Source of the DNA: an uncultured bacterium
Lineage (GTDB): Bacteria; Bacillota; Clostridia; Oscillospirales; Oscillospiraceae
Assembly (NCBI GenBank): GCA_947176765.1
Contig: CAMWRX010000025.1
Location: forward strand, 1-33,354
Reading direction: 5' to 3'
Length of the DNA: 33,354 nucleotides
The position numbers were made by a program, and so were the translations under genes. How positions within the stretch are numbered: position 1 is the stretch's first letter; each line of letters begins with the position of its first letter. Shown one piece after another: positions 8,767 to 24,901 of this stretch. Under the pieces are notes generated by a model. It was given only the letters and a program-made list of their open reading frames with translations. It ran no database searches and had not been told where the DNA came from.

Positions 8767-9796
8767 ACTCGCCTACCTCCTTTTTTTCTTTATACCTCCT
8801 CCAAATAGAACGCAGATGCAGCATACGGAACACATTTTCAAATCCAATTACTTTTTCCACTTTCCTTACAAACGCATACTGTCTTCCTGCCGCGAAGTCT
8901 ATATATCTCTTCTTGCTTTTTAGCCTTTCCATCATTTCTTTCTTCTCTTCTTTAGGCAGAAAGGTTGCCCTCGTACAAAGCGAATGATACTGCCGCGCAA
9001 AATCACTGAGCAGGAGACTTTTCAGTTCACCATCCGGTAACCTTTGTTCTGCATCCCTGATATTCTCTTCAATCGCCCACAAAAAATCAGACAGGTTTTG
9101 ATAGGATGCCACCTCACTGGTTGAGTTCTTCCTATTCCTCCTGTAAACATAAACGATATTGGGCATTACCTCTATTCGCTTCGCCTTCAGCAAAATCCTC
9201 CATATAAGGTATACATCCTCATACTTATGCCCCTCTGGGAATTGCAGTTCCTGGCCTGCAAACAGCTCCCTGTCATAAGCATAAAACCAGGGAAACCAGA
9301 AAAACATGGAATCCCCTTTCAAATGGACTGTCAAAAATTCCTCTGCTGTGTATCCTTTCCCTGCGCCATCAGTCCGAAAGTCATTCATACAGCTTTTGTT
9401 ATAAATCACCTTACTCCCATCCGAGAATGCCGATACCCCATGATACGCGACGATATCCGGGCTGTTGCTTTTCCTCTGGATATAATGTGCCAAATTCCGA
9501 AAATTGTCCTTACCGCAAAGATAATCATCGCCATCAATAAAGATGATATAATCCCCCTTGGAAATTCTGATTCCCTGGTTACGGGCCTTACTCTGTCCTT
9601 GGTTCTCCTGGTGGATAACATGGATACACTCATATTTCCTGGCATATTCATCACAGATTTTTCCACTGCCATCTGTTGAACCGTCATTGATCAGAATGAT
9701 TTCATAATCGGAGAAGCTTTGGCAAAGCACACTGTCTATGCATTCCTGTATATAATTCTCAATATTATATACAGGTATCACAACACTAAATAGCAT
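8759..9796 (-). CDS. GT2 family glycosyltransferase
   Basis: The 345-residue product has the classic GT-A nucleotide-sugar fold. It starts with FSVVIPVYN, then DYEIILINDGSTDGS, then the metal-binding motif in FIDGDDYL. This is typical of cytoplasmic inverting GT2 enzymes that add a sugar to a lipid-linked glycan. The donor and acceptor are unknown. The ATG at 9796 has a good gaggag Shine-Dalgarno about 8 nt upstream. The 3' end overlaps the radical SAM gene. The gene is AT-rich, like the rest of the island. Confidence 0.93.
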   Translation of the reverse strand: MLFSVVIPVYNIENYIQECIDSVLCQSFSDYEIILINDGSTDGSGKICDEYARKYECIHVIHQENQGQSKARNQGIRISKGDYIIFIDGDDYLCGKDNFRNLAHYIQRKSNSPDIVAYHGVSAFSDGSKVIYNKSCMNDFRTDGAGKGYTAEEFLTVHLKGDSMFFWFPWFYAYDRELFAGQELQFPEGHKYEDVYLIWRILLKAKRIEVMPNIVYVYRRNRKNSTSEVASYQNLSDFLWAIEENIRDAEQRLPDGELKSLLLSDFARQYHSLCTRATFLPKEEKKEMMERLKSKKRYIDFAAGRQYAFVRKVEKVIGFENVFRMLHLRSIWRRYKEKKEVGEFV

Positions 9797-9824: not shown

Positions 9825-10739
9825 CTACCCTTGCCGTTTACTTTTTCTAAACCTCTGCTTCCAATCATAATCCTTTACAAATTTCCAAAGAACCCATACA
9901 AATCGGTAAGGCTCCAGCAGGAGCCTGCCTGCGATACGTAGGTGGCTGGATGGATGCGCGTGCCATTCCGCCATTGCCCAGAGGGGGTACATCGTCCCCT
10001 TGTAGCCGCTGTTCCATGGCTTATTGGGCCCTGCATAATGGACAACTTTTGCCAAACTCCGCGTTTTCTTTATGGACAAGGTTTTCAGGTACTCCACCAG
10101 ATAGAGAAGATTGGCCATCAAGTTATAGGTGTCCCCCACCTGTTTGGTTCTGCCCTCATACAGGAGATTGAGTATATCCTGATCCGGAAACTCCAGTTCA
10201 TCTTTCCATTTTGTGACCAGGGCGCTTATTTCTTCCTGCTCTATTTCTTCCCGTATCCTCTTTAAATCCATCAAAAGCATTCCAGAATTGAAATAGACAG
10301 AATCCTTTTTCAATTCCTGCTTTATTCTGCACCCCAATAACTCTATGGGGCGGTCCTTGACCACTACCATCAGAGCCCCGTCAAAATCGATCTCCCACAA
10401 GCTGCGCAGAGAACCGTTAATCATTATATCCGGATCCAGATACAATACCCGGTCTTCATTCGGCAGCAGCCATGGGGCAAGCAGGCGATAGTACATTTCC
10501 TTTGAAAAATGTTCCATAACAGGCGCATTTTCAAAAGCGTCCTCTTCTATTTGTACCTCCAAAAGCTCCGCTTTATATAAATGACAAAAATCCCTCAGCA
10601 TTCCAACACTTGAAGCGCTGATTTCCGTGTGCATCAGAAAAACAGTGACCGGCTCCTCCTGGGTGGAAAAGAGACTGTAAAGCATCACTTTAAGCGGATA
10701 AATATATTTTTCATTTACTGTTACCAGAATTTTCATCAT
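9825..10739 (-). CDS. GT8 family glycosyltransferase (first copy)
   Basis: This 304-residue GT8 (LgtC/glycogenin-like retaining transferase) has an N-terminal KILVTVNEKYI strand. It also has the DxD metal site in RVLYLDPDI, the FNSGMLLMDL motif, PDQDILN, and a late VVHYAGPNKPW with the conserved His and Lys-Pro-Trp. It probably transfers galactose or glucose from a UDP donor. It resembles the second GT8 of this window at 22693-23601 (same N-terminal and EMYYR...LYLDPDI patterns), but its DNA is much richer in A+T. Two ATGs (10739, 10736) are possible, and neither has a strong Shine-Dalgarno. It is the first gene of the island's minus-strand group. Confidence 0.92.
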   Translation of the reverse strand: MMKILVTVNEKYIYPLKVMLYSLFSTQEEPVTVFLMHTEISASSVGMLRDFCHLYKAELLEVQIEEDAFENAPVMEHFSKEMYYRLLAPWLLPNEDRVLYLDPDIMINGSLRSLWEIDFDGALMVVVKDRPIELLGCRIKQELKKDSVYFNSGMLLMDLKRIREEIEQEEISALVTKWKDELEFPDQDILNLLYEGRTKQVGDTYNLMANLLYLVEYLKTLSIKKTRSLAKVVHYAGPNKPWNSGYKGTMYPLWAMAEWHAHPSSHLRIAGRLLLEPYRFVWVLWKFVKDYDWKQRFRKSKRQG

Positions 10740-11033
10740 TCTTTTCCGTCACTTCCCTTATTTCCTATCACCGTGCCGCCATTTCCACAGCGTATATCCA
10801 TCAGGGCAAGAAGCGGGTACAAATAAAAATGTTCTCTTTTCATCTTTACCGATACCCTCTTAAACGCTCTATTCCGCATCGATCACACAGGCCTAACTTC
10901 TTTTGTCTTTTTTGATACAATATACAATTATTCGACCAATTTTTGGGCAAATCATACAACCGATTGCCTCTTTATATTACTTATTATTTTTGCTATTATA
11001 TTGATGGAGTAATTAGGCTGGGAGGTATGCTTT
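10740..11033. promoter_or_regulatory. divergent intergenic region with flippase promoter
   Basis: This AT-rich spacer separates the divergent GT8 and flippase genes. On the plus strand, TGCTATTAT (10991-10999) is a plausible extended -10 for the flippase, with a leader of about 28 nt; no good -35 is visible. No convincing promoter was found for the GT8 direction. No gene is seen in it. Confidence 0.4.
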
Positions 11034-12554
11034 TTGCGATCAAAATTATTTTTGAAAAGTAGCCTTATCACATTTTTTTCTAAATTATTCTGTCACTTAG
11101 TGGATTTTATTTGTCGCACTGTCCTCATCTACACCCTTCCGCAGGAGTATGTCGGGGTCAATGGACTGCTCTCCAGCGCTCTGGCGGTTCTTTCTTTGTC
11201 CGAGCTTGGATTCGGCACCGTTCTTGTATACAGTATGTACGTGCCGTTTGCTCAAAAGGATGAGGAAAAACTTCTCGCACTCACAGACTTTTACAAAAAA
11301 GCGTATCACATCATTGCTGCCCTTGTTGGCTTACTCGGAATATGTCTCGCTCCTTTTCTTCCCTATATTGTCAATGATTGTCCTGATATTCCGGGATTAT
11401 CTGTTTTTTACCTACTCTATATGGCAAATATGATATGCTCTTATGCGTTCACGTATCATCAGTCCCTATTTCATGTCGATCAGAGACCCTATATTATCAC
11501 TTTTTATTACCACCTGCTCCGTATCGTCAGAACAGTCCTGCAGATCGTCATATTAATTACCACGCGCAATTTCTTTCTCTATTTATTTGTAATGATTCCG
11601 TTTACACTTTTCACCAATCTTTTGCTGTCATGGAAAGCGAAAAAAGAATATCCCTTTTTGAACTCTGACCGCCATCCGAAGCTGGCTGCTGATGAAAAGA
11701 AAAACATCTTCAAAAACGTTTATGCCATGTTTAACCACCGTGTGAGCTCAACGATATTAAACTCTACCGATAATCTTCTGATCAGTTTTTTTCTGGGGCT
11801 CACAACCGTGGCCCGCAATGACAGCTATAACATGATACTGAACTTTGTCCGTTCCATGCTTACCTCCTTTTTTGCTCCACTGAACGCAAGTGTGGGAAAT
11901 TATTACGCGCTCAACACAGAAGAAGAAACGCACTCCTTATTTGAAACCCTTCACTTTGCTACCCTCTGGCTTTACACCTTCTGTACTGCCAGTTTCTTCC
12001 TTCTCGTAAACCCTGCGATCACCTTCGTATGGGGTGAAGAGTTCCTTCTTTCATTTCCCGCCGTCTTGCTGATATCGGTAAACTTTTATATTATGGGAAT
12101 CCGCCAGATGCCCAATACCTTTAAGGAGGCTATGGGATTTCTCTATCAGGACCGCTATATACCAATTGTGGAAGCCTTCGCAAATCTTGCCCTGTCTATT
12201 CTCCTTGGCAAGTTTATCGGCATTGTCGGTATCTTTGTAGGCACCTTCATCAGTGTTGTTTTCACATCTTTTTGGGTGGAACCCTATATCCTGATGCGTG
12301 ATGGATTTCACCGCTCCACGAAGGTCTTCTGGCTTAAGAATATCAGATACCTGCTCACAAGCACTCTTGCCATAGCGCTTACCTGGCTTTGCTGCCTGCC
12401 CTTTGAACTGCCTTTGTTAGCGCTCATAGGGGTTCGAATCGTTTTATGTTTGACTATCCCCAACATCATCTTTTTGCTGTTTTTCTTCAAAACCCCGGAG
12501 TTTCGTATGCTGCGCGATCTCCTAATGCAGTCCCTTCAAAAATCAGGCAGCTGA
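11034..12554 (+). CDS. Wzx-like polysaccharide flippase (MOP superfamily)
   Basis: This 506-residue membrane protein has about 12-14 hydrophobic segments. It begins with a Wzx/RfbX-type first helix and the motif YVGVNGLLSSALAVLSLSELG, typical of oligosaccharide flippases. It should move a lipid-linked glycan unit across the membrane. The start is a TTG at 11034, supported by gggaggt 7 nt upstream; a nearby ATG at 11027 is out of frame and soon stops. The gene faces away from the GT8/GT2/radical SAM group but shares its A+T-rich composition, so it probably belongs to the same acquired glycan set. It converges on the Pel-like operon without a clear terminator in the gap 12555-12659. Confidence 0.9.
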   Translation: MRSKLFLKSSLITFFSKLFCHLVDFICRTVLIYTLPQEYVGVNGLLSSALAVLSLSELGFGTVLVYSMYVPFAQKDEEKLLALTDFYKKAYHIIAALVGLLGICLAPFLPYIVNDCPDIPGLSVFYLLYMANMICSYAFTYHQSLFHVDQRPYIITFYYHLLRIVRTVLQIVILITTRNFFLYLFVMIPFTLFTNLLLSWKAKKEYPFLNSDRHPKLAADEKKNIFKNVYAMFNHRVSSTILNSTDNLLISFFLGLTTVARNDSYNMILNFVRSMLTSFFAPLNASVGNYYALNTEEETHSLFETLHFATLWLYTFCTASFFLLVNPAITFVWGEEFLLSFPAVLLISVNFYIMGIRQMPNTFKEAMGFLYQDRYIPIVEAFANLALSILLGKFIGIVGIFVGTFISVVFTSFWVEPYILMRDGFHRSTKVFWLKNIRYLLTSTLAIALTWLCCLPFELPLLALIGVRIVLCLTIPNIIFLLFFFKTPEFRMLRDLLMQSLQKSGS

Positions 12555-12659
12555 CCATGCGGTGCGCTCCAGCAAGTCAGCACAAGTATAGCGGGTTTGC
12601 TGCAGGTGCCGCAGCTGCCCCGGTCGTTAGGGAAACCGCCTCTCTTCCCGCGCCGCGGG

Positions 12660-14975
12660 CTATCCTTCCTCCGCCCTCAGCTGCGCCAGCTTCTCGTCCA
12701 CCTCGGTGACGTCTTCCTCCCGCTCCAGCATCCGGGCCCGGAGCTGCTCATAATAATCCAGCTCGGAGATAACGTTATAGCCGTAATCAATGGCTAAATT
12801 GTTGGGCATGAAAAGGTTCTGCTCAAACTTGTAGACGACGCACCTCTCATCCTCCAGGTAGACCTCCATCTGGTCTGGGAACGCCCTGCTGTACTCCTCC
12901 AGCCAGCAGGCCAGCTTGGCCTCCAGCGTCCGCCTGTTATCCGTGTACTTATAATAGTCGGTGAGGTTACTCTCCGTAATGCCCAGCAGCTCACCGGTTA
13001 TCGCCCGATCCGCGTCGGCCTTGTCCAGCGGCGGGAGCTCATATTTCTCGCCCACCAGACGGGTCTCATGATAGAGGATCGGCTGCTTCTCAAGGATAAA
13101 AAACACATACTCTGTCGGAATCTCCAGGTACATATCCTCCTGATACCGTTCCATGCCGGTGATAAACTCCCAAAGCTCATAGTGATAGCCGCCGTTGCGC
13201 ACCAGCGCCAGTTCATCCACAGAGGACACGATCGTCCACGTCCCCTTGGGGAATTCCTCCTCCACCTTGACACACGCCTCCGCCGCAAGGGAGTACTGCA
13301 AGTCGAAATATGTCTGCAACGCGATATGTCCGTCGAAAAACGCGCCATAAACCAGCACGCCTACAGCGCCATAGGCGCCCAGAGTCCCCAGAATATTCGC
13401 CCGTCCCGGAAGCGCACAGAACAGGGCCTCCAGCGGAAAGGCCAGCATAATTGGCCCGACATAACCCAAAAAAACAGCGATGCGATCCCAATACATGATC
13501 TCCGGTATGCCTAAAAGCTTGCTGTTCCCCATCATGACTATAATCAGCAGATACAGCCAGACGCCGGCGCACATCCGCCCGCCCCATTCCAGCTTTCTCC
13601 TGCACAGCACCACCACAAAAAATACCGCAAAGATCCCCATACTGGACCAGAGCACATAGCCCCAGTCCGCATTCATGAACTCCGTCTGGTACTTGAATAT
13701 TTGTATGATCCTTTCCAGCAGGCCAAACTCTTCCGCAGTCTCCGCAGCCTCCGCAGCTTCCACATCCGGCTCCTCTGTTTCGATCGGTTCTGTCTCGGCC
13801 TCGTCTGTGTCCTCCGTCTGGCCCGCAGAGGATGATATGACGCTGAGCGCCCAGTTCATGGAGCCCTGCCAGGACTTTCCCGACACCAGGCCAAGCACAA
13901 GCGGCAGGATGCTGAGCATCGCAATGAGGATTACAAGGGAGATCAGCCGTTTCAGCATATCCGGCTTCAATACGGTGCGGATGAACGCCAGACAGCAGCA
14001 GGCACACAGGATCACGGCCATGATCACCGTATAAAAATGCATGGACAGGGTGAGGGCGGCGCTGAAAGCGAAATACAACCCGTCCTCCCGCTTCTTGTCC
14101 TGAAGATACTTTCCCAGGAAGTAGACACAGGGAAGCAGGAACAGGGCCCCGAACTCCTGGGGGAGGGTGGTCATCGCGCGGTTGCCAAAGCTAAATCTGG
14201 CGTAATCCGTCACACAGTAGATTACCACCGGGATGACCGCCGCCGCCCGGGAGCGGAACACCCGCCGGGAGAAAAACCACAGCACGACCACCATAAGCAG
14301 GCAGTTGACCGCGCCAAAATAGCGCATGACCACATTGATATGCAAGCCCGTCAGCTTGTGCATCATGGAGACGATGTTGTGCATCCCAAAGGGATAGACA
14401 CCATCGTAAAAGATGTCCCCCTGTTCCATGAAATTGATCCAGTCATTGTGGACATATATGTCGGAGTATGAATAGGAATAATTCGTAAATACCAGCGGCC
14501 ATCTGCTCCAGATCAGCACCCCCAGCGCCGCCAGCACCACAATATACGCGGCCGCCTGCGTGGGGTTGGGCCGCCATTTTTTGTCTTGAAGCGCTTCCTT
14601 ACAGCTTTGCGCCCGCCGACCGGCCGCCTGCCTTGCCAGCAGCCCCAGCTTGTACTGGCCGCTTCCCACCAGCGCCAGCCACCGCAGCGCCGACTGGGCC
14701 GCGTCCCAGTAGGAGACGTGCTTCACAAGCTTCAAATAGACCAGCGCCACCGCAAGGAGCGCAATTACCAGCGTGACGGCATTGTAAATGTGCAGCAAGC
14801 CCAGCAGGTATACACAGCTGATCACCGACAAATAGGAGGCGATCAGTGCCTTGAGGGCGTTCTCTCCGGCGTTTTCCCCCCACAACGGGCGGCCCATCAG
14901 CTTTGCGGGGATAAAAACCAGGTACAGCAGAAAGAAAAAGGCGAACCGGATGAAATAGAGCACACTGTCCACCAT
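12660..14975 (-). CDS. large multispanning membrane protein, GT-C-like, last gene of the Pel-like operon
   Basis: I do not recognise a named family with certainty. The 771-residue product has about 11-13 membrane segments from residue 1 to about 500, then a soluble C-terminal region of roughly 180 residues. An early outward-facing loop has YSDIYVHNDWINF followed by VYPFGMHN, the Asp/His-rich pattern of GT-C transferases. A long acidic insert rich in Glu, Thr and Ala lies in a loop around residues 390-425. The ATG at 14975 follows a gaaggggg site, 14 nt after the PelE-like gene. Canonical Pel operons lack such a protein. It may add sugars on the outer face, or take the role that PelB/PelC play in Gram-negative species. 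Confidence 0.75.
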   Translation of the reverse strand: MVDSVLYFIRFAFFFLLYLVFIPAKLMGRPLWGENAGENALKALIASYLSVISCVYLLGLLHIYNAVTLVIALLAVALVYLKLVKHVSYWDAAQSALRWLALVGSGQYKLGLLARQAAGRRAQSCKEALQDKKWRPNPTQAAAYIVVLAALGVLIWSRWPLVFTNYSYSYSDIYVHNDWINFMEQGDIFYDGVYPFGMHNIVSMMHKLTGLHINVVMRYFGAVNCLLMVVVLWFFSRRVFRSRAAAVIPVVIYCVTDYARFSFGNRAMTTLPQEFGALFLLPCVYFLGKYLQDKKREDGLYFAFSAALTLSMHFYTVIMAVILCACCCLAFIRTVLKPDMLKRLISLVILIAMLSILPLVLGLVSGKSWQGSMNWALSVISSSAGQTEDTDEAETEPIETEEPDVEAAEAAETAEEFGLLERIIQIFKYQTEFMNADWGYVLWSSMGIFAVFFVVVLCRRKLEWGGRMCAGVWLYLLIIVMMGNSKLLGIPEIMYWDRIAVFLGYVGPIMLAFPLEALFCALPGRANILGTLGAYGAVGVLVYGAFFDGHIALQTYFDLQYSLAAEACVKVEEEFPKGTWTIVSSVDELALVRNGGYHYELWEFITGMERYQEDMYLEIPTEYVFFILEKQPILYHETRLVGEKYELPPLDKADADRAITGELLGITESNLTDYYKYTDNRRTLEAKLACWLEEYSRAFPDQMEVYLEDERCVVYKFEQNLFMPNNLAIDYGYNVISELDYYEQLRARMLEREEDVTEVDEKLAQLRAEEG

Positions 14976-14989
14976 ACAAAAACCCCCTT

Positions 14990-15898
14990 CTATTTCGCCA
15001 GCCAGAACCGCACGATCCGCAGCCCCTCTTCCGACAGGGAGACGCTGGACCCGGTCAGCCGCTTCAGCGCCTCGTCGAACTCCTCTTTTTTCCCCAGAGC
15101 GTACTTGATGTACATCACGTTCAGATGGGACTCCTCCGCCTCGGGCAGCCGCTCCAGGGACAGCTCCGCCCACTCCTCGGCCTCCTTGAACCTGCCCACG
15201 CCGTGCAGGGCGCGCACCATGGCGGCATAGTACGCCGGTGTAATCGCCTCTGGGTGGTTTTTGTCCAAATTCTGAACCAGCTCGATGAGCATATACCGAT
15301 ACTTGTTCTCCTCTACCTTCAGCAGGCCGCCACTGTTCAGGATGCGAAGCACCGCGTCCAGCAGCTCCTGGTTGGCCTGCAAATTGGCGCGGTCCTTGTC
15401 ATAAGCCACTTGCAGGCCGTTCAGTTCCGTAGTAAACCGGCCCAGCGCGTCCGTCAGGGCGGTGGCGGCGTAGTGGGAGGTCTCGGAGTCATCATTCTCC
15501 GCCGCCTTGCGCACCAGCGTCAGGTTCTCTCTGGCGTCCAGCCGCAGCATATTCAGCATGGCCCGCCGCTTGTCCCTGGTGTTGGATACGGCCAGCACCT
15601 CCTCCAGGGGCAGCATCTCCAGCTCCCGCTCCTTATCCACGGGCTGGAGGAACTTCTTCCGGGTCTTGTCGATGCTCAGGCTCTCATAGTCCACATCTTC
15701 CTTCCGGAGCATAAGATCCACCAGAAAGCTAAACAAAAAGCACAGAATCCCCACTACCGGGCACAGCACCATCGTGACGCCCCGCTGGAACACATAGATA
15801 GAGCGTTTTTTCAGCCACATCGCCACCATATACACCAGCGATAGCACGGTGTTGATAAGCACGATCCAAAGGATCACCATATTACTGTTGAAGCCCAT
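14990..15898 (-). CDS. PelE-like membrane-anchored TPR protein
   Basis: The 302-residue product has two membrane segments (about 7-27 and 41-63) followed by helical TPR-like repeats, clearest at about 218-285 (AYYAAMVRALHGVGRFKEAEEWAELSLERLP). Two N-terminal helices plus TPRs is the layout of PelE, which works with PelD and PelG in the Pel synthase complex. The order PelD-PelE is also conserved. The start is uncertain. The ATG at 15898 overlaps the end of the PelD gene by 17 nt; an ATG at 15880 lies directly after the PelD stop codon. The similarity is architectural and positional rather than by motif, so I give the assignment as likely. Confidence 0.75.
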   Translation of the reverse strand: MGFNSNMVILWIVLINTVLSLVYMVAMWLKKRSIYVFQRGVTMVLCPVVGILCFLFSFLVDLMLRKEDVDYESLSIDKTRKKFLQPVDKERELEMLPLEEVLAVSNTRDKRRAMLNMLRLDARENLTLVRKAAENDDSETSHYAATALTDALGRFTTELNGLQVAYDKDRANLQANQELLDAVLRILNSGGLLKVEENKYRYMLIELVQNLDKNHPEAITPAYYAAMVRALHGVGRFKEAEEWAELSLERLPEAEESHLNVMYIKYALGKKEEFDEALKRLTGSSVSLSEEGLRIVRFWLAK

Positions 15899-18083
15899 CC
15901 GCCAAAACCGCCTCGCTCTTTATTCCGTTATTGTTCAGTTTATTCACCACAAAGGACGAATCCGCGTAATTTGCGTGGACCAGGATGTGTACATATGTGT
16001 CCTCGTCTCTGATCTTGCCCAGCCGGTCATCCTCCCGGGTCAGCAGCTTGAGCCGGTTGCTCAGCGTCTCCATGGACTCGCCCTGGGCATCCACGCGGAT
16101 CAGGCTGTAGTCCGCCTCCTCATACCGCACAGAGCCCAGCTTTTCCTCCATCTGCTGCCGGAACACCTCCGGGAGCAGGACATCCGTACCGGGATAATAC
16201 TTCCGATCCCGCCCTGCCTCCTCATAGCGGTAGCTGCGCTCCAGGCTGGCGGTGATGATCCGGGACAGCACCAGGAACAGATCCTTCTGATAGACGTTCA
16301 GTTGGTCAAACTCCATATTCCACAGCATAATGATGTAGATCATCCGGCCGCCGGAATAGATGGGTGCGGCCATTCTGGGCATCTCGGAGCCTACGGAGCG
16401 GTCCACAAAAATGCCCGGTTCCCCCAGCACACGGCGCAGCTCCGGATAGTCGCCCACCCGGAAAGCCCGCTTCATCCCCAATGCCTCCTGCCCAGTGGCG
16501 CCGGACAGGTGAAAATATCCCTCCTGCCCCGCCCGATAGAGACTTACATCCTTCACCTTCATGATCTTCTGCACTACGCCCAGGGAGGACCGCGCCACCT
16601 TCTCCGGGTCCAGCACGTCCAGCTCCGAGACAATGCTGTACACCTTCCCGATACTGTCCCCGTAATTCAACAGGCGCTGCTCAAAGGCGCGCTTGATTTC
16701 CACATTGGTTTTGTCCACCTCATAGAGCATATCGTACTCTTCCTCGATATCATTCGCCCGCTCCTCCTGCTCCCGGAGGCGGAGCTTAAAGCGCAGGATG
16801 GTATAGGAGACAATAATGGCAATGATAAGGTAAAACAAAAATCCGAAGATAAACGGATACTGGGAAATCAGGGCAGAAAGCCCCAGCCCGGTCTGCCGCA
16901 TGGCAAAATACAGATTTGCCCCCGTGGTCAGCACCACGGCCAGCACGCTGTGCCCCACGCCCAATCCAATGGCGGCTATTAAAATATACAGCAGCATGAA
17001 ATCTACCCGCTGAAACATCTCCATGGTTCCCAGCGTATTGGTCAAAAGCAGCGACACCAAAAACAGCGCCAGATTTTCCACCAGCCGCTTCCCGCCGGCG
17101 GCAAACGCGCGCAGGTCGTCTTTCCAGCGCTTTTTGACCCTGTTTTTCTCCTCTGCCTGGGCAGCTTTGTCCCGCTCCACCAGGCGTTCGCTGTTTTTGT
17201 CTACAAACGCGAAGGTGCGCGCCAGGCCGGTAGACAGCTCTACATGGGGCGCGTAGGAAAACTCCGCGGCAAACCGGCTCCCATCCAAGGAGAAGCAGCC
17301 CTCCTCCTCACACTCCCGCGCCCGCACGGGATGTCCGCACAGATCCTGAAGCCGCGCGGCAAGCTCCTTGTCCGAAACCACCGACGCGCCCTCGACCTGG
17401 TAGAGAAGTTCCTGGGGGCGGGGACTGCAAAGGGCCTTGTATACCGCGTCCACCGCGTCCGACACATAGATCGCCATGGTTTGGGCGGGATCTTCCCGCC
17501 GAACCGTCCCGCTTATTTTTCCATCCAGGCAGAGCTGCTCGATGGGATTGAGCTTTTCATATAAAAAATGGGAAGGTCCGTACACCTCCGGGAAACGCAG
17601 GATGGTGACCGCCGTGACCGCGTCATGGTAAAGCCGGCACAGGCACTCGCCGCTGTAAGCAGTCATCCCCGCCGCCCCCGCGGGCCTCGGCTCCTGCTCC
17701 GGTGTCAGCTTCTCCCCGGCATTCTCGCCAAACACCGCCATGCTGGACAGGTAGATGAAATGCTTCACCCCATATGCCTTTGCCCAGATCAGTATGTTGT
17801 TCAGATTGGCGGCATATTGGGTGGAGGTCCTGTCATTTCCCCAGTCATATCCATCGTCCTGCGCGCCCAAAAACACGATGGCGTCAGGCAGGACGCTGTG
17901 GATGATGTATTTCACCGCCACCTCATCAGGCTCGAACTCATAGATGCTGTGGGCGGGCAGCCGCGCCGCCTTCATTTTGGAATTTTTCCCCGCGATGGTG
18001 TAGACCTCGCACTGTTCCCGGCGCAGACGCTCAATCAGATAATTCATCATAAAGCCGTATGAACCGACCACCAGAACCTTCAT
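15882..18083 (-). CDS. PelD-like cyclic di-GMP receptor fused to an N-terminal SDR/epimerase domain
   Basis: This 733-residue protein has four parts. Residues 1-300 are an extended SDR (NAD-dependent epimerase) fold with GSYGFMM in place of GxxGxxG, LSSMAVFG, and Y143 in YSGEC, so the catalytic YxxxK Lys is Cys147. Residues 334-432 hold four membrane segments. Residues 455-615 look like a GAF domain. Residues 630-730 are a degenerate GGDEF domain. There, RxxD (R683, D686) sits where the inhibitory cyclic di-GMP site lies, while GGDEF is replaced by RDEDT. TM-GAF-degenerate GGDEF is exactly PelD, which switches on Pel synthesis when cyclic di-GMP binds. The ATG at 18083 overlaps the pelG stop codon by 4 nt and has an aggagg site. 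The SDR part is probably not an active epimerase and may be structural or NAD-sensing. Confidence 0.85.
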   Translation of the reverse strand: MKVLVVGSYGFMMNYLIERLRREQCEVYTIAGKNSKMKAARLPAHSIYEFEPDEVAVKYIIHSVLPDAIVFLGAQDDGYDWGNDRTSTQYAANLNNILIWAKAYGVKHFIYLSSMAVFGENAGEKLTPEQEPRPAGAAGMTAYSGECLCRLYHDAVTAVTILRFPEVYGPSHFLYEKLNPIEQLCLDGKISGTVRREDPAQTMAIYVSDAVDAVYKALCSPRPQELLYQVEGASVVSDKELAARLQDLCGHPVRARECEEEGCFSLDGSRFAAEFSYAPHVELSTGLARTFAFVDKNSERLVERDKAAQAEEKNRVKKRWKDDLRAFAAGGKRLVENLALFLVSLLLTNTLGTMEMFQRVDFMLLYILIAAIGLGVGHSVLAVVLTTGANLYFAMRQTGLGLSALISQYPFIFGFLFYLIIAIIVSYTILRFKLRLREQEERANDIEEEYDMLYEVDKTNVEIKRAFEQRLLNYGDSIGKVYSIVSELDVLDPEKVARSSLGVVQKIMKVKDVSLYRAGQEGYFHLSGATGQEALGMKRAFRVGDYPELRRVLGEPGIFVDRSVGSEMPRMAAPIYSGGRMIYIIMLWNMEFDQLNVYQKDLFLVLSRIITASLERSYRYEEAGRDRKYYPGTDVLLPEVFRQQMEEKLGSVRYEEADYSLIRVDAQGESMETLSNRLKLLTREDDRLGKIRDEDTYVHILVHANYADSSFVVNKLNNNGIKSEAVLADGLQQ

Positions 18084-19552
18084 CGCGATCCCTCCTGCCC
18101 TTCCTTCCGGAATTGATAAATCGTAGTCACACTGTGCGCCCCGCGGGACCTCACCCGGGGCACAATTCTGCCCTGCCCGAAGATGTGGTCGTCCAGGTGG
18201 ATCAAAATATGCCGGATGCGGAAAAAGCAGACCGTAAACGCGCATAGTCCGCCAAAGGCCGCCCCCAGCCCTGCCTGCGCGGCCGGCAGCTTTACTGCGA
18301 TCAGGCTGCCTATCGTAACGCCGGCCAGCAGCGTAAAGCCTGCTATAGCCGCTCCCGTCACGTCATTGAGATAATACAGGTAAATCATCAGGCACTGGAC
18401 CAAATAGATGATCATATAGGCCACGGACAGCACCGGATACATGGTCAGCATCAGGCCCTCGATGCCCAGCTTGGGCAGCACCGCAATGGCTGCCAGATAC
18501 ACCAGAATGTTTACAATGGCCTGAATCTGGATGATGTACAGCGTCTCCCGGCGCAGGGTCTCAACCATATCCCGCTTGGCGCGCCGAATGTCCTTGTCCG
18601 CCGCGCCCACCACCGATTCGCAGTAGGTTTGGTATGCCATGTGGAACTTCGTTTCCACATTTACCACAAAAACCACCTGGATGGAGATATTGCTGAGCAT
18701 GGCCAGATAGGTCGCCATGTCATAGGTAGGCGCGGACCGGAACACATTGGCGGTAACAATGCTGAAATCCGAGAAGAACCAAAACACAAAATTGTGGGCA
18801 TAAAGCCCCATCACGTAGAACTCATTGGCCAGAACCAGCGGCAGGTTCTTTTTCAGGCTGCGCAGCAGCTCCCAGCCCGTTTCACCATGCACCGGAAAAG
18901 TGCGCTGGATGCGGGTACACATAAGCATGGCGATCAGCGTAAAGCCCACCGCCAGCGACAGCAGGATAATGTCCCGCATGGGCGCCAGCTTCCAATACAC
19001 GCACACACAGGCCAGCAGAAGACTGACAGCAAAGCTTCCCAGGAAGCTGTAACTGATCTTCCGATACTCCTTCAAAATGGTGATGATGCTCATATAAAAG
19101 AACGTGAAGGACAGACCGGAAAAAAAGATATACGCAATAAAAATGTAATAGAGCGGCAGATGGCCCACCCAGTACATGGCGCAGCCGAAGGGGATCCCCA
19201 GCAGGGCCGTCAGGCCGGCCACCAGCAGATTTCCCGCCTCCACCGCGGAGGCGATCCCGTTGTAGTCCTCGCAGTATACCTTGTCCGCCATGTGTTTGGA
19301 CAGCAGAATATTCACCCCGGCCACCAGGATGAGGGCAAATATGAAGACATACAGGATGGTAGAGCTAAGCACCTCCCTGTCGCGATAGGCCATCTCCGCA
19401 TAGGGTGGCAGCAGATACATCAGGTTCAGCGCCAAAATGACGATCAAGTTTGGCCCAATGGTGACGATGGTGGCATAAGCCCCCGCAAAAATGGTGCTGA
19501 ACACGCTCCGTTTTTTGAACAGCCGCTTTAATTCAAAGCCAATTCCCGCCAT
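18080..19552 (-). CDS. pelG: Pel exopolysaccharide transporter PelG
   Basis: The 490-residue product starts MAGIGFELKRLFKK, the PelG signature, and has about 12 membrane segments. It is a MOP-superfamily protein that, with PelD, PelE and PelF, forms the inner-membrane Pel synthase and moves the polymer out. The short cytoplasmic C-terminus is basic. Its ATG overlaps the pelF stop codon by one base (TAATG), and its own stop overlaps the PelD gene by 4 nt, so the three are tightly coupled in translation. Confidence 0.93.
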   Translation of the reverse strand: MAGIGFELKRLFKKRSVFSTIFAGAYATIVTIGPNLIVILALNLMYLLPPYAEMAYRDREVLSSTILYVFIFALILVAGVNILLSKHMADKVYCEDYNGIASAVEAGNLLVAGLTALLGIPFGCAMYWVGHLPLYYIFIAYIFFSGLSFTFFYMSIITILKEYRKISYSFLGSFAVSLLLACVCVYWKLAPMRDIILLSLAVGFTLIAMLMCTRIQRTFPVHGETGWELLRSLKKNLPLVLANEFYVMGLYAHNFVFWFFSDFSIVTANVFRSAPTYDMATYLAMLSNISIQVVFVVNVETKFHMAYQTYCESVVGAADKDIRRAKRDMVETLRRETLYIIQIQAIVNILVYLAAIAVLPKLGIEGLMLTMYPVLSVAYMIIYLVQCLMIYLYYLNDVTGAAIAGFTLLAGVTIGSLIAVKLPAAQAGLGAAFGGLCAFTVCFFRIRHILIHLDDHIFGQGRIVPRVRSRGAHSVTTIYQFRKEGQEGSR

Positions 19553-20970
19553 TATGTACCTGCCTCCCCTTCAAACTGCCGGTAAAGCTCGTGGTATGTC
19601 GCGGTGACCTGCTGATTTCGATAAAATTCCCGGGTGCGGATTCTGCCCACATTTCCCATTTCCGCCCGCAGCGTCTCATTTTCGGCCAGCTCTACGATAG
19701 CGTCCGCAATCCTGTCCACGCCCATCACCGGCACAACAATCCCGCTTCTCCCCAGGCGATCCTTCTCATTGCCATACAGCAGCTCATAGCAGCCGCCCAC
19801 ATCGGTGGCGATGCAGGGCTTGGCGGCGGCCATGGCCTCCAAGATGCTCAGCGGCTGGCCCTCGGAAATGCTGGTCAGAATGACCATGTCCATCTTTCCC
19901 AGATAGTCCCGTATATCCACCAGTCCGGTGAAGATGACATCCTTCACCTGGAAGGTCTCAATAACCTCCCGGCACTCTTCGTAGTATTGCGGATTCTCAT
20001 CCGTGGGGCCCATAATATACAGCCGTAAGGAAGGAACCTTCGCCTTGGCCAGCGCAAAGGCGTTGATCATCGTCTTGACGTCCTTGATGGGCACCACCCG
20101 GAGCAGCGCACCCACATTGATGTATGGATCGTCCGGCTCCTTCTCCGCAATGCCCTCCAGCCGCTCCATATACACGCCGTTTGAAATGACCCTGGTTTTC
20201 TCCTCCGGGCATCCCAGCTCCAGCTGGATCCTCCGCGCGGAGTCGAACAGGGAAATCACCTGCTCCGCGCAGTCATAGATGCAGCCGGACAGGGTGTAAA
20301 AGTAGCGAATCCAGATGTCCTTAAAGATGCCCTGGGTCCAGTCCACCTTGATGATCTCCTCCTCCCGCTCCCGGGTGTAAATCCCGTGCTCGGTGAGGAT
20401 CACCGGCTTGTTGTATAAATAGTGCCCCTTGCACGCCAGAACCCCGGCGTAGCCCGTGGAGATGGCGTGATAGCAGTCCGCCTCGGCCACCGGGGTTTTC
20501 AGCACCGTGAACAGCGGCAGATACAGTGAGCGCATACTCCACAAAAAATCGGTGAAGGTACACTGGGAGTATTTTTCCACATATAGTTCCTGCACCACCT
20601 CAAAAAAGGCGCTCCCCATCAGAACATCGTTGACCGACAGGTCTTTCCGGTCAAAGAAGCGGAACAGGCCCGGCCAGTCCACATCCTCCCCGAACAGCAG
20701 CTTGCGGAAGCAGGCCTTTTCGTCCTCGTTCACTGTCGTCTTTTTCCTGAACCATTTCACCACGTCTTTGTCGTTGAGGTAGGATTCCCGAAGCTCCGCC
20801 ACATTGGCGGGCGGCTCATACCGGAACTGCCCGCTCTGTTCCCTGTCCGGCAGAACAGTGTAGATGGTGAAGTCGATGTGCGAACTGGCCTCCAGCAGCA
20901 TCTGCACCCAGCTGGAAACGCCGCCCACCACATAGGGATAGCACCCCTCCACAAACATCGCCACGTTCAT
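19552..20970 (-). CDS. pelF: Pel polysaccharide glycosyltransferase PelF (GT4)
   Basis: This 472-residue soluble GT4 begins with MNVAMFVEGCYPYVVGGVSSW, the typical PelF N-terminus. It has the acceptor-side TEHGIYTREREEEI and the donor-binding SISEGQPLSILEAMA (EX7E-type) motif near the C-terminus. In Pseudomonas, PelF polymerises the Pel backbone from UDP-activated sugars. It is cytoplasmic and recruited to PelD/E/G. The ATG at 20970 has a strong gaggagg site; 17 nt separate it from the upstream gene. Confidence 0.95.
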   Translation of the reverse strand: MNVAMFVEGCYPYVVGGVSSWVQMLLEASSHIDFTIYTVLPDREQSGQFRYEPPANVAELRESYLNDKDVVKWFRKKTTVNEDEKACFRKLLFGEDVDWPGLFRFFDRKDLSVNDVLMGSAFFEVVQELYVEKYSQCTFTDFLWSMRSLYLPLFTVLKTPVAEADCYHAISTGYAGVLACKGHYLYNKPVILTEHGIYTREREEEIIKVDWTQGIFKDIWIRYFYTLSGCIYDCAEQVISLFDSARRIQLELGCPEEKTRVISNGVYMERLEGIAEKEPDDPYINVGALLRVVPIKDVKTMINAFALAKAKVPSLRLYIMGPTDENPQYYEECREVIETFQVKDVIFTGLVDIRDYLGKMDMVILTSISEGQPLSILEAMAAAKPCIATDVGGCYELLYGNEKDRLGRSGIVVPVMGVDRIADAIVELAENETLRAEMGNVGRIRTREFYRNQQVTATYHELYRQFEGEAGT

Positions 20971-20987
20971 CCGACGCCCTCCTCTTC

Positions 20988-22502
20988 TTACTGCGCTCTC
21001 TCCCGGAGCAAAACTGTCGCGTCCCGATCCATCACCTTGACCAGATACGCGGTTTCCCCAATCTGGGTGACCTCGCAGTTATTCCCGGCCACCGCCCGCT
21101 TTTCTGTCCGCACGATATAGAAGCACACTTCGTCGAAGCCCTCTGTCTCAATGGAGATGTATTCCTCCCCCATCCGGATTTCCGGCTGGATCAGGACGTA
21201 CCGCTTATATCGCTCCTGCGCCATGGACAGCGTCATGGCGTCCATCCAGTCCGTGTCCTGATAGAGGTCGTGCATCAGCTTGGACAGCTCCAGGAAATAG
21301 GCGTTCCACTCATAACCCGGGTCGCTGGCATTCTCCCCCATGATCTCGGTCATATCCAGACAATGCACCGCTAGCCCCTGCCCGGAGACGCCGGTCTGCA
21401 TTTTGAATGCATTCTGCGCCGTGCGCAGGTGTCCCGAGCAGGTGCGGGGAAGCGCCAGTTCCACCTCCTGCGTCCCCTCGACCACCTCGCAGCCCCTGTG
21501 CCGGATCATGTCCATCAGGCTCTGGGTTTCCCGCTGGACGTCCGCCGATGGCGGGCCATCCATTTGGGTGCTGATTACCAGCCCGTGGGCTTCACACAGC
21601 TTCACCATGGACGGCCACACAAGATCCCGCAGGAACATATTGGTGTCCCGGCTGTACAGCTCCCGGATCTGCTCCTCATAGGGGTTATCCAAAACCGGGA
21701 AGGAGTCCAGCAGGTTCACCTTGGCGTTGACCACCGGGTACACAAACACATCCTCCGCACAGGACAGCAGCCCCGTCAGAATCCCCATACCGTATTCCCC
21801 GGTCAGAAAATCGCCGTTGATGACATAAAACCGGCCCTCGCCATACCGCTTCTCCCAGATGAGCGGGATCAGATCCTTCCGCTCCTTATCCTCCTGAGAC
21901 CACTCCACCATCAACTTCCCGCATCTGGCGTCCACCGTCACCTTGGACACAGTGCACGTCAGGCCATTGTGATACACCTGGCCCTGGATCAGCAGCTTCT
22001 CCGACAGCAGGATCCCATCGATCTCCGCACTTCCTTCGTTGTGCAGCACACCGATGGTCTTGTTCCGCTCCTGCGCGTCCGTTCCCGTCATAATGTGCGC
22101 AAAGATCAGCGTCTTGCCCTCTTGGGCATATCGCAGCAGCGCGTCCCCATCGCCGATCTCATCCCAGCTTTCCGCCGTGACGACAATGACATCGAGGCGC
22201 TCCGCCTGTTCCGCGGTGATCTCCTCTACGGTGGAAAATACCCCATAGGTCTTCTTGAGATTCGCCAGCAGCTCCGCCATCTCCTGGGCGCCGCCTTCCC
22301 CCTGGCGGCCGCACACCACGGCGATCTCCGGCTCCTCCGCCTCCCACGCGTCCACCGCGTTGTAATTCTGCGGCATTGAGATGGGCGTCAGCCGCTCGTA
22401 AATTCCCAGGTTTATTGACAGATTTCCCGCCATGATTAAGTAAAACACCAACATCGCCGCAAATGACAGGATGCAGGCCACATAGTCAGATCGTTTTAAC
22501 AT
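20988..22502 (-). CDS. DUF2194/PelA-deacetylase-like membrane-anchored protein
   Basis: The 504-residue product has an N-terminal membrane anchor (about 9-28). A Rossmann-like domain follows (about 58-250, with VIVVTAESWDEI and YVINGDFL), then a region resembling the deacetylase part of DUF2194 and Gram-positive PelA (about 253-480). Gram-positive Pel clusters encode a PelA reduced to its deacetylase, and this gene sits just before pelF. The family's metal motif, usually read as DDFP, appears here as LLDSFP (D266, S267). I also see no HxxxH of CE4 enzymes. So activity is doubtful, and the protein may act as a scaffold or polymer-binding factor. The alignment is by eye. The ATG at 22502 follows ggaggg. 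Confidence 0.7.
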   Translation of the reverse strand: MLKRSDYVACILSFAAMLVFYLIMAGNLSINLGIYERLTPISMPQNYNAVDAWEAEEPEIAVVCGRQGEGGAQEMAELLANLKKTYGVFSTVEEITAEQAERLDVIVVTAESWDEIGDGDALLRYAQEGKTLIFAHIMTGTDAQERNKTIGVLHNEGSAEIDGILLSEKLLIQGQVYHNGLTCTVSKVTVDARCGKLMVEWSQEDKERKDLIPLIWEKRYGEGRFYVINGDFLTGEYGMGILTGLLSCAEDVFVYPVVNAKVNLLDSFPVLDNPYEEQIRELYSRDTNMFLRDLVWPSMVKLCEAHGLVISTQMDGPPSADVQRETQSLMDMIRHRGCEVVEGTQEVELALPRTCSGHLRTAQNAFKMQTGVSGQGLAVHCLDMTEIMGENASDPGYEWNAYFLELSKLMHDLYQDTDWMDAMTLSMAQERYKRYVLIQPEIRMGEEYISIETEGFDEVCFYIVRTEKRAVAGNNCEVTQIGETAYLVKVMDRDATVLLRERAQ

Positions 22503-22515
22503 TTCCCTCCGCCCT

Positions 22516-22690
22516 TTATTGTGACAGATGTTCCCTGTACCAGCCGATGGTCAGGGCCAGTCCCTGCGCAAAGTCAAAGCCCGGGTGGCAGCCCAGCAGT
22601 CTCCGCGCCTTGTCGATGTCCGCGTGGGAGCGGCGCGCGTCTCCCTCCCTCGTTATAGGCCGGGATGATAACGCTCACCCGCTTATGTGC
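22516..22690 (-). pseudogene. deletion scar joining a GT2 start to the C-terminus of a UDP-GlcNAc 4-epimerase
   Basis: Reading the minus strand, the sequence first encodes VSVIIPAYNEG (about 22649-22678), the universal N-terminus of GT2 enzymes. Within a gagggaggga run it shifts frame into REGDARRSHADIDKARRLLG...FAQGLALTIGWY, ending at TAA (22516-22518). The second part matches the C-terminus of WbpP/PelX/GalE-type epimerases (GDxRxSxADIxKAxxLLG...GLxxxxxWY). A deletion at the short repeat has therefore removed most of both genes. PelX-type epimerases supply UDP-GalNAc for Pel, so the loss matters for what polymer is made. Confidence 0.75.
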
Positions 22691-22692
22691 GT

Positions 22693-23601
22693 TTATCTTG
22701 CCGCCCCTCCGCGCAGCAACAGCAGCAGCAGCCGTTTCCTGTCTCTCCAAAAGCTCCTTGCAATGTAATACAGCCGGAACCGGAACCGCCTGCGCTCCTC
22801 CTTGCTCAGCCGTTTCTTCAAATAGCGGTAATACTCTTTGAAATACTTCCCATAGTATTCCAACTGCCACGGCTTCAGCTTGCCCATGTAATGGACGATC
22901 ACCGGCTTCTCCTTGTCATGCCGCAGCTTCAGCGCAAATAACAGCAGATCCCACGCCGTTCTATAGCCGGTGTTGAAATTGTAAATCCGCGGGGCAAGCA
23001 GGAGGTCGTCTTGAAAATAGAGGTTCATCACATCCTGATCCGGGTAGGAAGTACTGTCCCGGTACTCCTCCAAAAGCCCGATGAAGCGATCCAGGGAAAA
23101 GTCCGCGCGCATTTTCTTCAGGTTGAACAGCAGCACGCCGGAATTGACATAGTAATAGCTCTCCGGCAGGCCGATGGCCGTCTTTTTGTCCGGCATCATA
23201 TAATTGACGGCGTAATCCGCGACGCCCACCAGGGCTTTCCCCTGGAAATCCATCTCATACAGCGGCGCGATGTCCCCCCGGATCAAAATATCCGGATCCA
23301 GATACAGCACCCGCTCCTCCGTCTCCGGCAGCAGCGTTCCGCACAGGAACCGATAGTACATCTCTTTCGGAAAATATCCGAACACAGGGGCATCCCGGAA
23401 CGCCGTCCCATCTACAAAGATTGGGAAGAACCGTCCGCTGCGCCCCGCCATGTACTCTTGGAGCCGCTCCCTGCTCTCCTCCGATACGTCTGAGTAGAGC
23501 AGATACAGATCCACCGGCCCCGGTTCCTGAGCATACAGTGAGTCCAGCATCACAAACAGGGGCCGTATGTATTTCTCGTTCAGCGTCACCAGAATATTCA
23601 T
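22693..23601 (-). CDS. GT8 family glycosyltransferase (second copy)
   Basis: The 302-residue product starts MNILVTLNEKYI. It has the metal site in RVLYLDPDI, then VNSGVLLFNL, PDQDVMNLY and VIVHYMGKLKPW, all GT8 marks. The C-terminus is very basic (RDRKR, then a Leu run), suggesting binding to the membrane surface. The ATG at 23601 is chosen because gagggaga lies about 7 nt upstream; an ATG at 23616 would fall inside the ribosome-binding region. It is a paralogue of the AT-rich GT8 at 9825, but with the GC content of the operon. It lies second in the Pel-like operon, just before the deletion scar, and probably decorates or initiates the glycan. Confidence 0.92.
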   Translation of the reverse strand: MNILVTLNEKYIRPLFVMLDSLYAQEPGPVDLYLLYSDVSEESRERLQEYMAGRSGRFFPIFVDGTAFRDAPVFGYFPKEMYYRFLCGTLLPETEERVLYLDPDILIRGDIAPLYEMDFQGKALVGVADYAVNYMMPDKKTAIGLPESYYYVNSGVLLFNLKKMRADFSLDRFIGLLEEYRDSTSYPDQDVMNLYFQDDLLLAPRIYNFNTGYRTAWDLLLFALKLRHDKEKPVIVHYMGKLKPWQLEYYGKYFKEYYRYLKKRLSKEERRRFRFRLYYIARSFWRDRKRLLLLLLRGGAAR

Positions 23602-23619
23602 CCGTCTCTCCCTCAATCC

Positions 23620-24696
23620 CTACAGCGCGTTCAGCAGCGTCTCCCACTGATCCAGCACAGTGCGCAGCGAGAACCGATCCACCGACAGCCTGGCCCGCTC
23701 CCCCAGCTCTTGGCGAAGCTGTTCCGAACCCATCAGCCGGCGCAGCCCTTGGGCAAATCCGGCACAGTCTCCCACGGGAAACAGGAGACCGTTCTCCCCG
23801 TCTGTGACAATATCCCGGGGGCCGGCCTTACAGGCAAAGCTGACCACCGGCCTGCCGTATGCCATAGCCTCGATGAGCACCATGCCGAAGCCCTCGTCCC
23901 GGGAGGACAGCGCGAAAATCCCCGCCTGCCGGTACAGCGCGCCCATATCCGCCGCCTGCCCGGGCAGCTCCACCCGGCGCAGCCCCAGTGTCTCGCGCTG
24001 CGCTTCCAGAGCCTGCCGCTCCTCTCCCTCGCCCACGATGCGCAGCGTCCAGTCCGGGAATTCGGCTTCCACCTCGGCCCAGCTCTCCAGCAGGAGGTCA
24101 AAACCCTTCGCCCGGGTCAGCCGCCCAGCGGCCAGCACCAACCGCTCTCCACCCCCCTCCCGGGCCGCGTCCTCAAAGGGATTGGGGTTGTAAATCTGGC
24201 ACAGCCTGCCCCGGATATTCAGATTCTCCTCGTAATACGCCCGATCCTCTTGGGTGAGCACCAGCACGACGTGGGAAAACCTCGCCGCCAGCCGCATGGC
24301 CACCCGGCGAAGCCGGTTGTTTTTGGGGAAATGGTAGTAGAAGTTGAAGTGCTCCCAGGCAATCCGCTTTACCCCTGCCAGGCCCGCCGTGGCCGGCAGG
24401 CTGTACAGCGTCAGAATCAGATCCACGTCCACCAGGACAGGCAGCGCTTCCTCCCGGACAGCCTTACGCAGCCTGCTCACCGTCCGCAGGTGCTGGACCA
24501 CCGTACTGGGATAGTCGTCCCCGAGACGGCGGAACGTAATCCTGCCGTCCAGCGGGAAGACCAGTTCGTCCTTCCCCCACACGCTGATTACCACCACCTG
24601 ATGGCCCCGCTCCGCCAGCCCATTGGCAATCTGCTGGAGCACCCGCTCCGTGCCGCCCGCATGGCTCATATTGCCAATCAAAAAGCCGATCTTCAT
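23620..24696 (-). CDS. GT4 family glycosyltransferase
   Basis: This 358-residue GT4 (GT-B fold) has KIGFLIGNMSHAGGTERVL at its N-terminus with the GGTE loop. The donor side holds VLAAGRLTRAKGFD and DEGFGMVLIEAMAYGRPVV (EX7E motif). It resembles enzymes of the amylovoran/WbnK type that use UDP-galactose or UDP-GalNAc. The exact sugar is unknown. The ATG at 24696 gives the normal GT4 N-terminus; an upstream in-frame ATG at 24759 would add 21 non-family residues. It is the first gene of the Pel-like operon, downstream of a long leader, and 18 bp before the GT8 gene. Confidence 0.92.
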   Translation of the reverse strand: MKIGFLIGNMSHAGGTERVLQQIANGLAERGHQVVVISVWGKDELVFPLDGRITFRRLGDDYPSTVVQHLRTVSRLRKAVREEALPVLVDVDLILTLYSLPATAGLAGVKRIAWEHFNFYYHFPKNNRLRRVAMRLAARFSHVVLVLTQEDRAYYEENLNIRGRLCQIYNPNPFEDAAREGGGERLVLAAGRLTRAKGFDLLLESWAEVEAEFPDWTLRIVGEGEERQALEAQRETLGLRRVELPGQAADMGALYRQAGIFALSSRDEGFGMVLIEAMAYGRPVVSFACKAGPRDIVTDGENGLLFPVGDCAGFAQGLRRLMGSEQLRQELGERARLSVDRFSLRTVLDQWETLLNAL

Positions 24697-24901
24697 CCCG
24701 CGTTTTCCCCCATAGCCGCCAGTAGCAGCAGCCCGCTTCCTCATACTGCCGCCGGTCATAAATTTCCTTGACGCCCACCAGCAGCCGCGCTGTTCCGCCG
24801 CTCAGAGGAATTTACCAGGTTCCTGTCCAAACTCAAATCAATGCTGCCCAAACGGCGGTTTGTGGACAATACAAACATTTTGTGACAATTCCTTGAACAA
24901 T
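24697..24901 (-). other. long leader of the Pel-like operon with a possible gene remnant
   Basis: The expected transcript start (near 24901) lies about 205 nt before the first gene. The proximal part (about 24700-24810) has a coding-like minus frame without a start codon (LLVGVKEIYDRRQYEEAG). It may be the tail of a lost upstream gene rather than a regulatory RNA. I looked for a cyclic di-GMP riboswitch core and did not see one. The AT-rich distal part has short repeats of the type ttgtca/tgtcca, possibly an operator. Confidence 0.4.

Follow-up and report, generated by a model that had tools for sequence, protein, structure and literature searches.

What kind of polymer is made by a pel gene cluster that carries additional glycosyltransferases and whose deacetylase lacks its catalytic residues? 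The question is raised by eight genes on contig CAMWRX010000025.1 (assembly GCA_947176765.1) of an uncultured bacterium from the family Oscillospiraceae; the whole stretch of 33,354 nucleotides that was analyzed is called the window here. Pel, a partly deacetylated alpha-1,4-linked polymer of N-acetylgalactosamine, has been studied more thoroughly than most polymers of biofilms and owes its charge to PelA. The eight genes encode relatives of PelADA (A), PelF (F), PelG (G), PelD (D), and PelE (E), two leading glycosyltransferases (GT4 and GT8), and a terminal 771-residue membrane protein designated GTC, and are transcribed in the order GT4-GT8-A-F-G-D-E-GTC (Table 1). With moderate confidence, we assign the locus to a clade of Pel-related clusters that would produce a decorated polysaccharide that is not de-N-acetylated.

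Loss of the deacetylase site in PelADA

The activity of PelADA from Bacillus cereus requires residues H350, H354, and H488, and its mutants MT1 and MT2 fail to restore Pel in vivo (PMC13254593). The protein is predicted to sit on PelG, where it meets the chain on its exit (PMC13254593). In the window PelADA, the HxxxH region is missing, D263 is replaced by serine, which gives DS in place of the DD pair, and H488 is replaced by aspartate. All 59 readable PelADA proteins linked to GTC lack each of the three histidines (H350, H354, and H488) at the corresponding alignment positions, and none has the DD pair. Judged from these alignments, the window PelADA is a probable pseudo-deacetylase, which retains the overall architecture of the enzyme and has lost the metal site.

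A second sample of loci was collected through PelG, and 23 of them have a readable PelADA. The site is lost in all nine loci with GTC and intact in 11 of the 14 loci without a visible GTC. The corresponding Fisher value of 3.4e-4 (9/9 versus 3/14) counts related loci as independent and is not a probability. Loci L021, L122, and L132 are short contigs, and GTC could lie outside them. Four rows were dropped from the count: PelADA is cut off in L016 and L125, and was not found between its neighbors in L126 and L133, two pel loci in which D, E, F, and G are present.

A GT-C-like protein accompanies the pel genes

The window GTC has no match in Pfam or NCBIfam. A comparison of 31 GTC relatives with family models yielded one DUF6541 match (4.8e-4) amid similar chance matches, a search of PDB sequences with the GTC profile returned only NuoJ at 0.025, and no GTC relative was confirmed in viral contigs. 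By contrast, a structure model predicts a GT-C membrane fold resembling STT3/PglB/AglB, ArnT, Pmt, EmbB, AftA, AftD, and ALG9/12, in agreement with the GT-C-like character that the first-pass annotation of the window had proposed. These enzymes share the fold but only 7–13% sequence identity with GTC, which carries about 135 more N-terminal residues than STT3 and ArnT. Residue D172, the conserved acidic residue of the first outer loop, is invariant in 31 of 31 sequences. In the model it begins the helix 172–184, which follows the helix 138–158, and it would be the catalytic residue.

An alignment scan of genome contigs confirmed 166 stretches with GTC relatives, and all counts are based on the 80 best loci among them; some of these share a genome or contig (for example L056 and L098). 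At least 71 of the 80 loci contain a pel gene, and at least 63 contain both pelF and pelG. The window order A-F-G-D-E-GTC is present in 17 of the 80 loci, mainly from Lachnospiraceae and rumen Ruminococcus and Clostridia, and in the congeneric genome G1045, which is more than expected by chance. The remaining orders are D-E-A-F-G-GTC (16 loci), the same with D out of view (12), D-E-GTC-A-F-G (9), GTC-D-E-A-F-G (6), and partial ones. The 63 loci that contain both pelF and pelG include at least 54 with a GT2 of the DPM/ArnC-like seed class, at least 38 with DUF4832, at least 35 with DUF2304, and at least 21 with a MOP flippase. No relatives of cotH, PPP, or DUF4956 were seen in the 80 loci with the seeds used.

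The additional genes are not peculiar to one strain, as GT4, GT8, and GTC also accompany pel genes in further genomes. The run opens with GT4 and GT8, followed by GT2, in L029–L032 and L034. GT8 lies at the cut end of L033, L025, L026, and L028, and in L036 the GT4-GT8 pair is situated between PelE and GTC. The window GT4 is 48–49% identical to those of L029, L034, and L036 and 94% identical to that of G1045; the GT8 is 45–60% identical to those of L025 (partial), L029, L034, and L036, and 88% identical to that of G1045 (91% over 267 residues). A GT2, the putative C55-P-sugar synthase, is encoded in L025, L026, L028–L032, L034, L036, and G1045, and only its scar is left in the window. Loci L048 and L050, from records titled Roseburia and Agathobacter, carry GTC, as does L055 of Schaedlerella arabinosiphila DSM 106076, a gut commensal that can be cultured.

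Some GTC loci have features of their own. GTC relatives in L067, L070, L076, L079, L097, and L102 lie in stretches of 13–22 kb without pel genes, some amid other glycosyltransferases, and the pel-free loci include records titled Enterocloster bolteae and Coprococcus catus. In L104 (9950–13465), the GTC frame spans 1,171 residues and overlaps a match to DUF4832 at 12143, so that GTC and DUF4832 may be fused there. Behind GTC and a GT4, 11 window-type clusters (L025–L034 and L036) encode a type I pullulanase-like protein with PUD, CBM48, and GH13 domains (for example L029:13450–16140) and with hydrophobic stretches at both termini; the window has no such gene. Its GH13 motifs appear intact, and the gene may hint at an alpha-glucan part in the polymer.

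Core proteins of the cluster

The eight genes follow one another in the same direction on the minus strand and, with starts picked by hand, are separated by at most 18 bases or overlap slightly; the sole larger gap, of 190 bases, is between GT8 and PelADA. The window proteins were searched with the Pfam and NCBIfam models. PelF and PelG, which the first-pass annotation had called clear, matched their own family models and not unrelated GT4 or MOP families. The DUF2194, GT4, GT8, and 771-residue proteins were also found where it had placed them. Its PelD- and PelE-like proteins have no match to any PelD or PelE model in the two collections, and the PelE-like one matches no model of any kind; however, most of each protein can be aligned with those that occupy the PelD and PelE positions of other pel loci (27–29% identity for PelE with L015, L017, and L018). 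The E-x7-E motif of PelF is kept in the window and in 84 of 84 aligned rows.

The SDR domain at the N-terminus of the PelD-like protein lacks YxxxK, and the lysine is absent at the aligned place in 48 of 48 PelD. The GAF-like and GGDEF-like parts were assigned from alignment with other PelD and the description in PMC7112168, and are accordingly putative. An RxxD motif is present as REDD at 683–686 (R683–D686) and in 43 of the 48 aligned PelD, and it is probably the site through which cyclic diguanosine monophosphate (c-di-GMP) is sensed. Control by c-di-GMP is possible, because the genome has two GGDEF matches.

A single clade and possible transfer between lineages

In a PelF and PelG tree of 82 rows, the 69 GTC rows cluster together (FastTree, local support 100), and in one of 39 rows, the 28 rows with GTC are on one side of a single branch (IQ-TREE quick mode, SH-aLRT 100, no bootstrap). 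The nearest outgroups, L175 and L132, are on long branches. Since both have an inactive PelADA and no visible GTC, the tree fits a loss of the active site that preceded or accompanied the gain of GTC.

PelG is uncommon near the window: it occurs in 8 of 300 genomes from the family, in 15 of 391 from the class, and in 6 of 42 from the genus, each count including the window's own genome. At least four kinds of pel locus exist within the genus (L159, L172, L173/L174, and L175). The window and G1045 group with the Lachnospiraceae loci L025, L026, and L028, and the GTC loci of the window's own family and genus (L015, L017, L018, L173, and L174) branch apart from them, which suggests transfer between lineages.

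Comparison with known systems

Known Gram-positive pel operons have the order D-E-A-F-G (PMC7112168). The operon pelDEADAFG of B. cereus ATCC 10987 encodes the same set of PelD, PelE, PelADA, PelF, and PelG, without outer-membrane parts (PMC7112168). The window differs from it in the rotated order A-F-G-D-E, which had been annotated as the expected one, in the SDR domain on PelD, in a PelADA without the active-site residues, and in the added GT4, GT8, and GT-C genes. Clostridial and streptococcal pel loci with cotH, PPP, DUF4956, and DUF4832 share with the window the fusion of SDR to PelD and the altered SDR residues, which were reported for clostridial PelD (PMC7112168). They have DUF4832 in common with the GTC loci, where cotH, PPP, and DUF4956 were not seen. 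PelADA is intact in most loci of this type examined here, unlike in the GTC loci.

The pel genes of Roseburia lie in a larger cluster of capsule- or teichoic-type glycosyltransferase genes, and Whitfield et al. (2020, PMC7112168) left open whether such loci function at all or give rise to a polymer unrelated to Pel. As in the window, further glycosyltransferases thus stand beside pel; the accessible portion of that paper names neither a GT-C protein nor an inactive deacetylase there. The first-pass reading of the additional genes was incomplete in this respect: a glycosyltransferase setting for pel had been noted before, and GTC marks a whole clade and not one strain. The present loci widen the Roseburia remark to a clade with a predicted GT-C protein and without the deacetylase residues. 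A search of titles, abstracts, and open full texts, with subscription journals and preprints outside its reach, found no paper on a GT-C protein or an inactive PelADA in pel loci.

Parallels in gene content are GacI-GacJ-GacK-GacL of group A streptococcus and WpsA/B-WpsG-WpsJ of lactococci, which combine a GT2, a small membrane partner, a Wzx flippase, and a GT-C protein (PMC8035078, PMC10821137). The role proposed for GacL and WpsJ is the transfer of sugars that are carried on undecaprenyl phosphate (PMC8035078, PMC10821137). The backbone in these systems is a rhamnan, and GTC is likened to GacL and WpsJ by gene set, not by sequence.

Deletion and mosaic GTC relative to a congener

The cluster of G1045 has the order GT4-GT8-GT2-epimerase-A-F-G-D-E-GTC and is positioned beside the same DUF362 gene (97.7% identical). 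The other flank differs, as the esterase gene to the left of the window cluster sits on a separate G1045 contig. The window is collinear with L159 of G1045 at 12640–22645 and 22647–24788. The break at 22645/22647 corresponds to L159 10864/12595, so that 1,730 bp of G1045 are absent from the window. In the scar, the opening residues of GT2 and the final 30 to 40 of the epimerase can still be read. The GT2 of L025 matches ArnC over residues 3–294 of 309 (9hwj, E 2e-19), and chondroitin synthase scores equally on its first 110 residues. The L025 epimerase matches WbpP (E 1e-89) and WbgU, which we take to be epimerases of uridine diphosphate N-acetylgalactosamine (GalNAc); the guess that GalNAc is the substrate is derived from these matches. 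Relatives of the lost genes elsewhere in the draft genome are weak (29% and 23% identity for GT2, 31% for the epimerase).

None of the eight genes has inner stops. The ratio of nonsynonymous to synonymous substitution (dN/dS) between the window and G1045 is 0.10–0.28 for seven genes and 0.34 for GTC. The dS of GTC is 0.66, compared with 0.15–0.25 for the other seven, which indicates exchange of GTC rather than fast change. In bins of 300 bases, identity is 91–97% from the end of the first part of GTC through PelADA, 54–77% over most of GTC (12940–14439), and 93% again in its last bin. The GTC proteins are 92–94% identical over residues 1–100 and 701–750 and 34–44% identical over residues 401–550. 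Downstream of GTC there is no likeness: the window has low-GC (guanine and cytosine) genes for a flippase, GT8, GT2, and radical SAM protein, and G1045 has a GT4, an acyltransferase, and a weakly GT8-like stretch. In this one pair of genomes, a conserved backbone operon thus seems to be followed by a variable cassette for decoration.

The acyltransferase, of family 3, is encoded at L171 10599–11690 in the variable tail of the G1045 cluster, and O-acetylation of the polymer by it is possible. On the other side, 2,861 bases at L159 14742–17604 separate GT4 from DUF362 and encode a MOP-type flippase; the window lacks them at this place.

Neighboring genes and a second pel remnant

The set of genes may be wider than 12660..24696, because the flippase and the second GT8 near GTC have relatives within related clusters. 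The flippase is 41% identical to the one that ends the L036 cluster and 48% identical to the one adjoining the G1045 cluster, and the second GT8 is 54–55% identical to the terminal GT8 of L029 and L034. Membership of the radical SAM and GT2 pair in the Pel-like system is unproven. The block 7924–12554, which encodes these four proteins, has a GC content of 40–45%, compared with 55–65% in the pel genes and high-GC flanks, and is not collinear with G1045. Scans of the window for promoters and terminators gave no excess over shuffled sequences (15 found, mean 15.5; 21 found, mean 17.9).

Contig C22 of the same genome (L022 7340–10073) contains a 72-residue PelG fragment and a nucleotidyltransferase-like frame, followed by DUF2304-like, GT4, and DPM-like GT2 frames. 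The Pfam DUF2304 model did not reach the 0.01 level at the DUF2304-like frame. The genes are probably a relic of an older resident pel cluster of the D-E-A-F-G type, and the DPM-like GT2 and small membrane protein may stand in for the lost GT2.

Table 1 Features of the window in and around the pel-like cluster.
Feature	Position	Strand	Evidence
GT4 glycosyltransferase, 358 aa, first gene of the run	23620..24696	−	PF00534, 133 bits
GT8 glycosyltransferase, 302 aa	22693..23601	−	PF01501, 118 bits
Deletion scar, start of GT2 gene joined to end of epimerase gene	22503..22692	−	Reading frames, collinearity break
PelADA-like protein, 504 aa, DUF2194, probable pseudo-deacetylase	20988..22502	−	PF09960, 133 bits (cut-off 30.4)
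PelF, 472 aa, GT4 polymerase	19552..20970	−	NCBIfam NF038011, 350 bits (cut-off 100)
PelG, 490 aa, exporter	18080..19552	−	PF16933, 358 bits, 1–452 of 452 (cut-off 29)
PelD-like protein, 733 aa, SDR domain, then membrane, GAF-like, and degenerate GGDEF-like parts	15882..18083	−	PF01370 at 3–221
PelE-like protein, 302 aa	14990..15898	−	Alignment with PelE-position proteins
GTC, 771 aa, predicted GT-C-fold membrane protein, mosaic against G1045	12660..14975	−	
MOP-type flippase, 506 aa, convergent with GTC, possibly in the system	11034..12554	+	No Pfam match
Second GT8, 304 aa, possibly in the system	9825..10739	−	PF01501, 139 bits
Radical SAM protein (280 aa) and GT2 (345 aa), low-GC block	7924..9796	−	PF04055, PF00535; 40–42% GC

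Proposed function and alternative explanations

The suggestion that the locus encodes a branched or chemically different relative of Pel gains support from the predicted GT-C fold and the lost active site of PelADA. PelF would polymerize an N-acetylhexosamine, probably GalNAc, in the cytoplasm. PelD, PelE, and PelG would hold the chain and export it; PelD would probably sense c-di-GMP, and the inactive PelADA would stay at PelG as a guide or scaffold. GTC would act on the outer face, where it would transfer to the chain a sugar or a short oligosaccharide carried on undecaprenyl phosphate. By analogy with GacIJKL and the lactococcal Wps system, the ArnC/DPM-like GT2 would load this carrier, GT4 and GT8 would extend it, and the MOP flippase would move it across the membrane.

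Several points weigh against this proposal. Nine of the 80 GTC loci have no visible pel gene (three stretches shorter than 9 kb and six of 13–22 kb), and the family is thus not exclusive to pel. PelADA is inactive without a visible GTC in L122 as well as in the outgroups L132 and L175, and an H...H pair occurs somewhere in seven of the 59 GTC-linked PelADA, near the site in two (L040 and L043). Because the loci with GTC form one clade, their association does not represent independent events, and the inactive PelADA and GTC may reflect one historical event. The GT-C fold leaves the donor and acceptor undefined, and GTC could serve another polymer. PelD and PelE are putative assignments from alignment and position, not from a model, and the window copy may be impaired, with GT2 and the epimerase gone.

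The cluster could instead make ordinary Gram-positive Pel, a partly deacetylated cationic polymer of galactosamine and GalNAc, with the accessory transferases incidental. PelF with its motif, PelG, and the PelD- and PelE-like genes are all present, and accessory genes differ among Gram-positive pel loci (PMC7112168). However, the residues needed in B. cereus PelADA are missing in 59 of 59 GTC-linked proteins, and GTC accompanies pel genes in at least 71 of 80 loci, which makes this explanation very improbable. A new activity of PelADA at the same site would account for its retention under constraint (dN/dS 0.27 against G1045) and for the strong conservation in the D-E-A-F-G subclade, where many alignment columns agree in 90% or more of 40 rows. 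Much of the carbohydrate esterase core is nevertheless missing in the window type, no conserved metal site was noticed, and such an activity is quite unlikely.

Somewhat less unlikely is a system of two polymers, in which GTC links a second, separately made surface polysaccharide to the Pel-type chain, as in the lactococcal pellicle polysaccharide and rhamnan. The lactococcal model combines a GT2 and small membrane partner, cytoplasmic glycosyltransferases, a Wzx flippase, and a GT-C transferase (PMC10821137), and a DPM-like GT2, DUF2304, GT4, and a flippase are found in many loci with GTC. However, no polymerase for a second polymer was recognized among the genes looked at, which were not searched systematically for one. 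The window copy itself might be a decaying remnant that yields nothing or a bare chain, which is compatible with a decorated polymer in the rest of the clade. The missing 1,730 bp, the weak relatives of the lost genes, and the extra pelG fragment on C22 point in this direction. By contrast, all eight genes are open, with dN/dS values that argue for constraint although they average over time before the deletion, the DPM-like GT2 on C22 has an open frame, and the draft assembly could have collapsed the region. Decay of the window copy is doubtful, yet it has to be taken seriously.

Implications

A tentative extension of the decorated-polymer proposal is that a widespread branch of Pel, present in Firmicutes of the gut and rumen, has abandoned de-N-acetylation and uses its chain as a scaffold to which a GT-C system adds sugars outside the cell. 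Recombination at the GT-C gene and those that follow it would swap the side chain, so that close relatives would share a backbone and differ in their surface, like serotypes. If the clade, which is found in Lachnospiraceae, Oscillospiraceae, and their relatives, has no deacetylase activity and carries a GT-C system in its place, PelF and PelG alone would mislead as a sign of Pel producers, and these bacteria would own an undescribed class of decorated surface polymer. The GTC clade renders testable the question that Whitfield et al. raised for Roseburia-type loci (PMC7112168).

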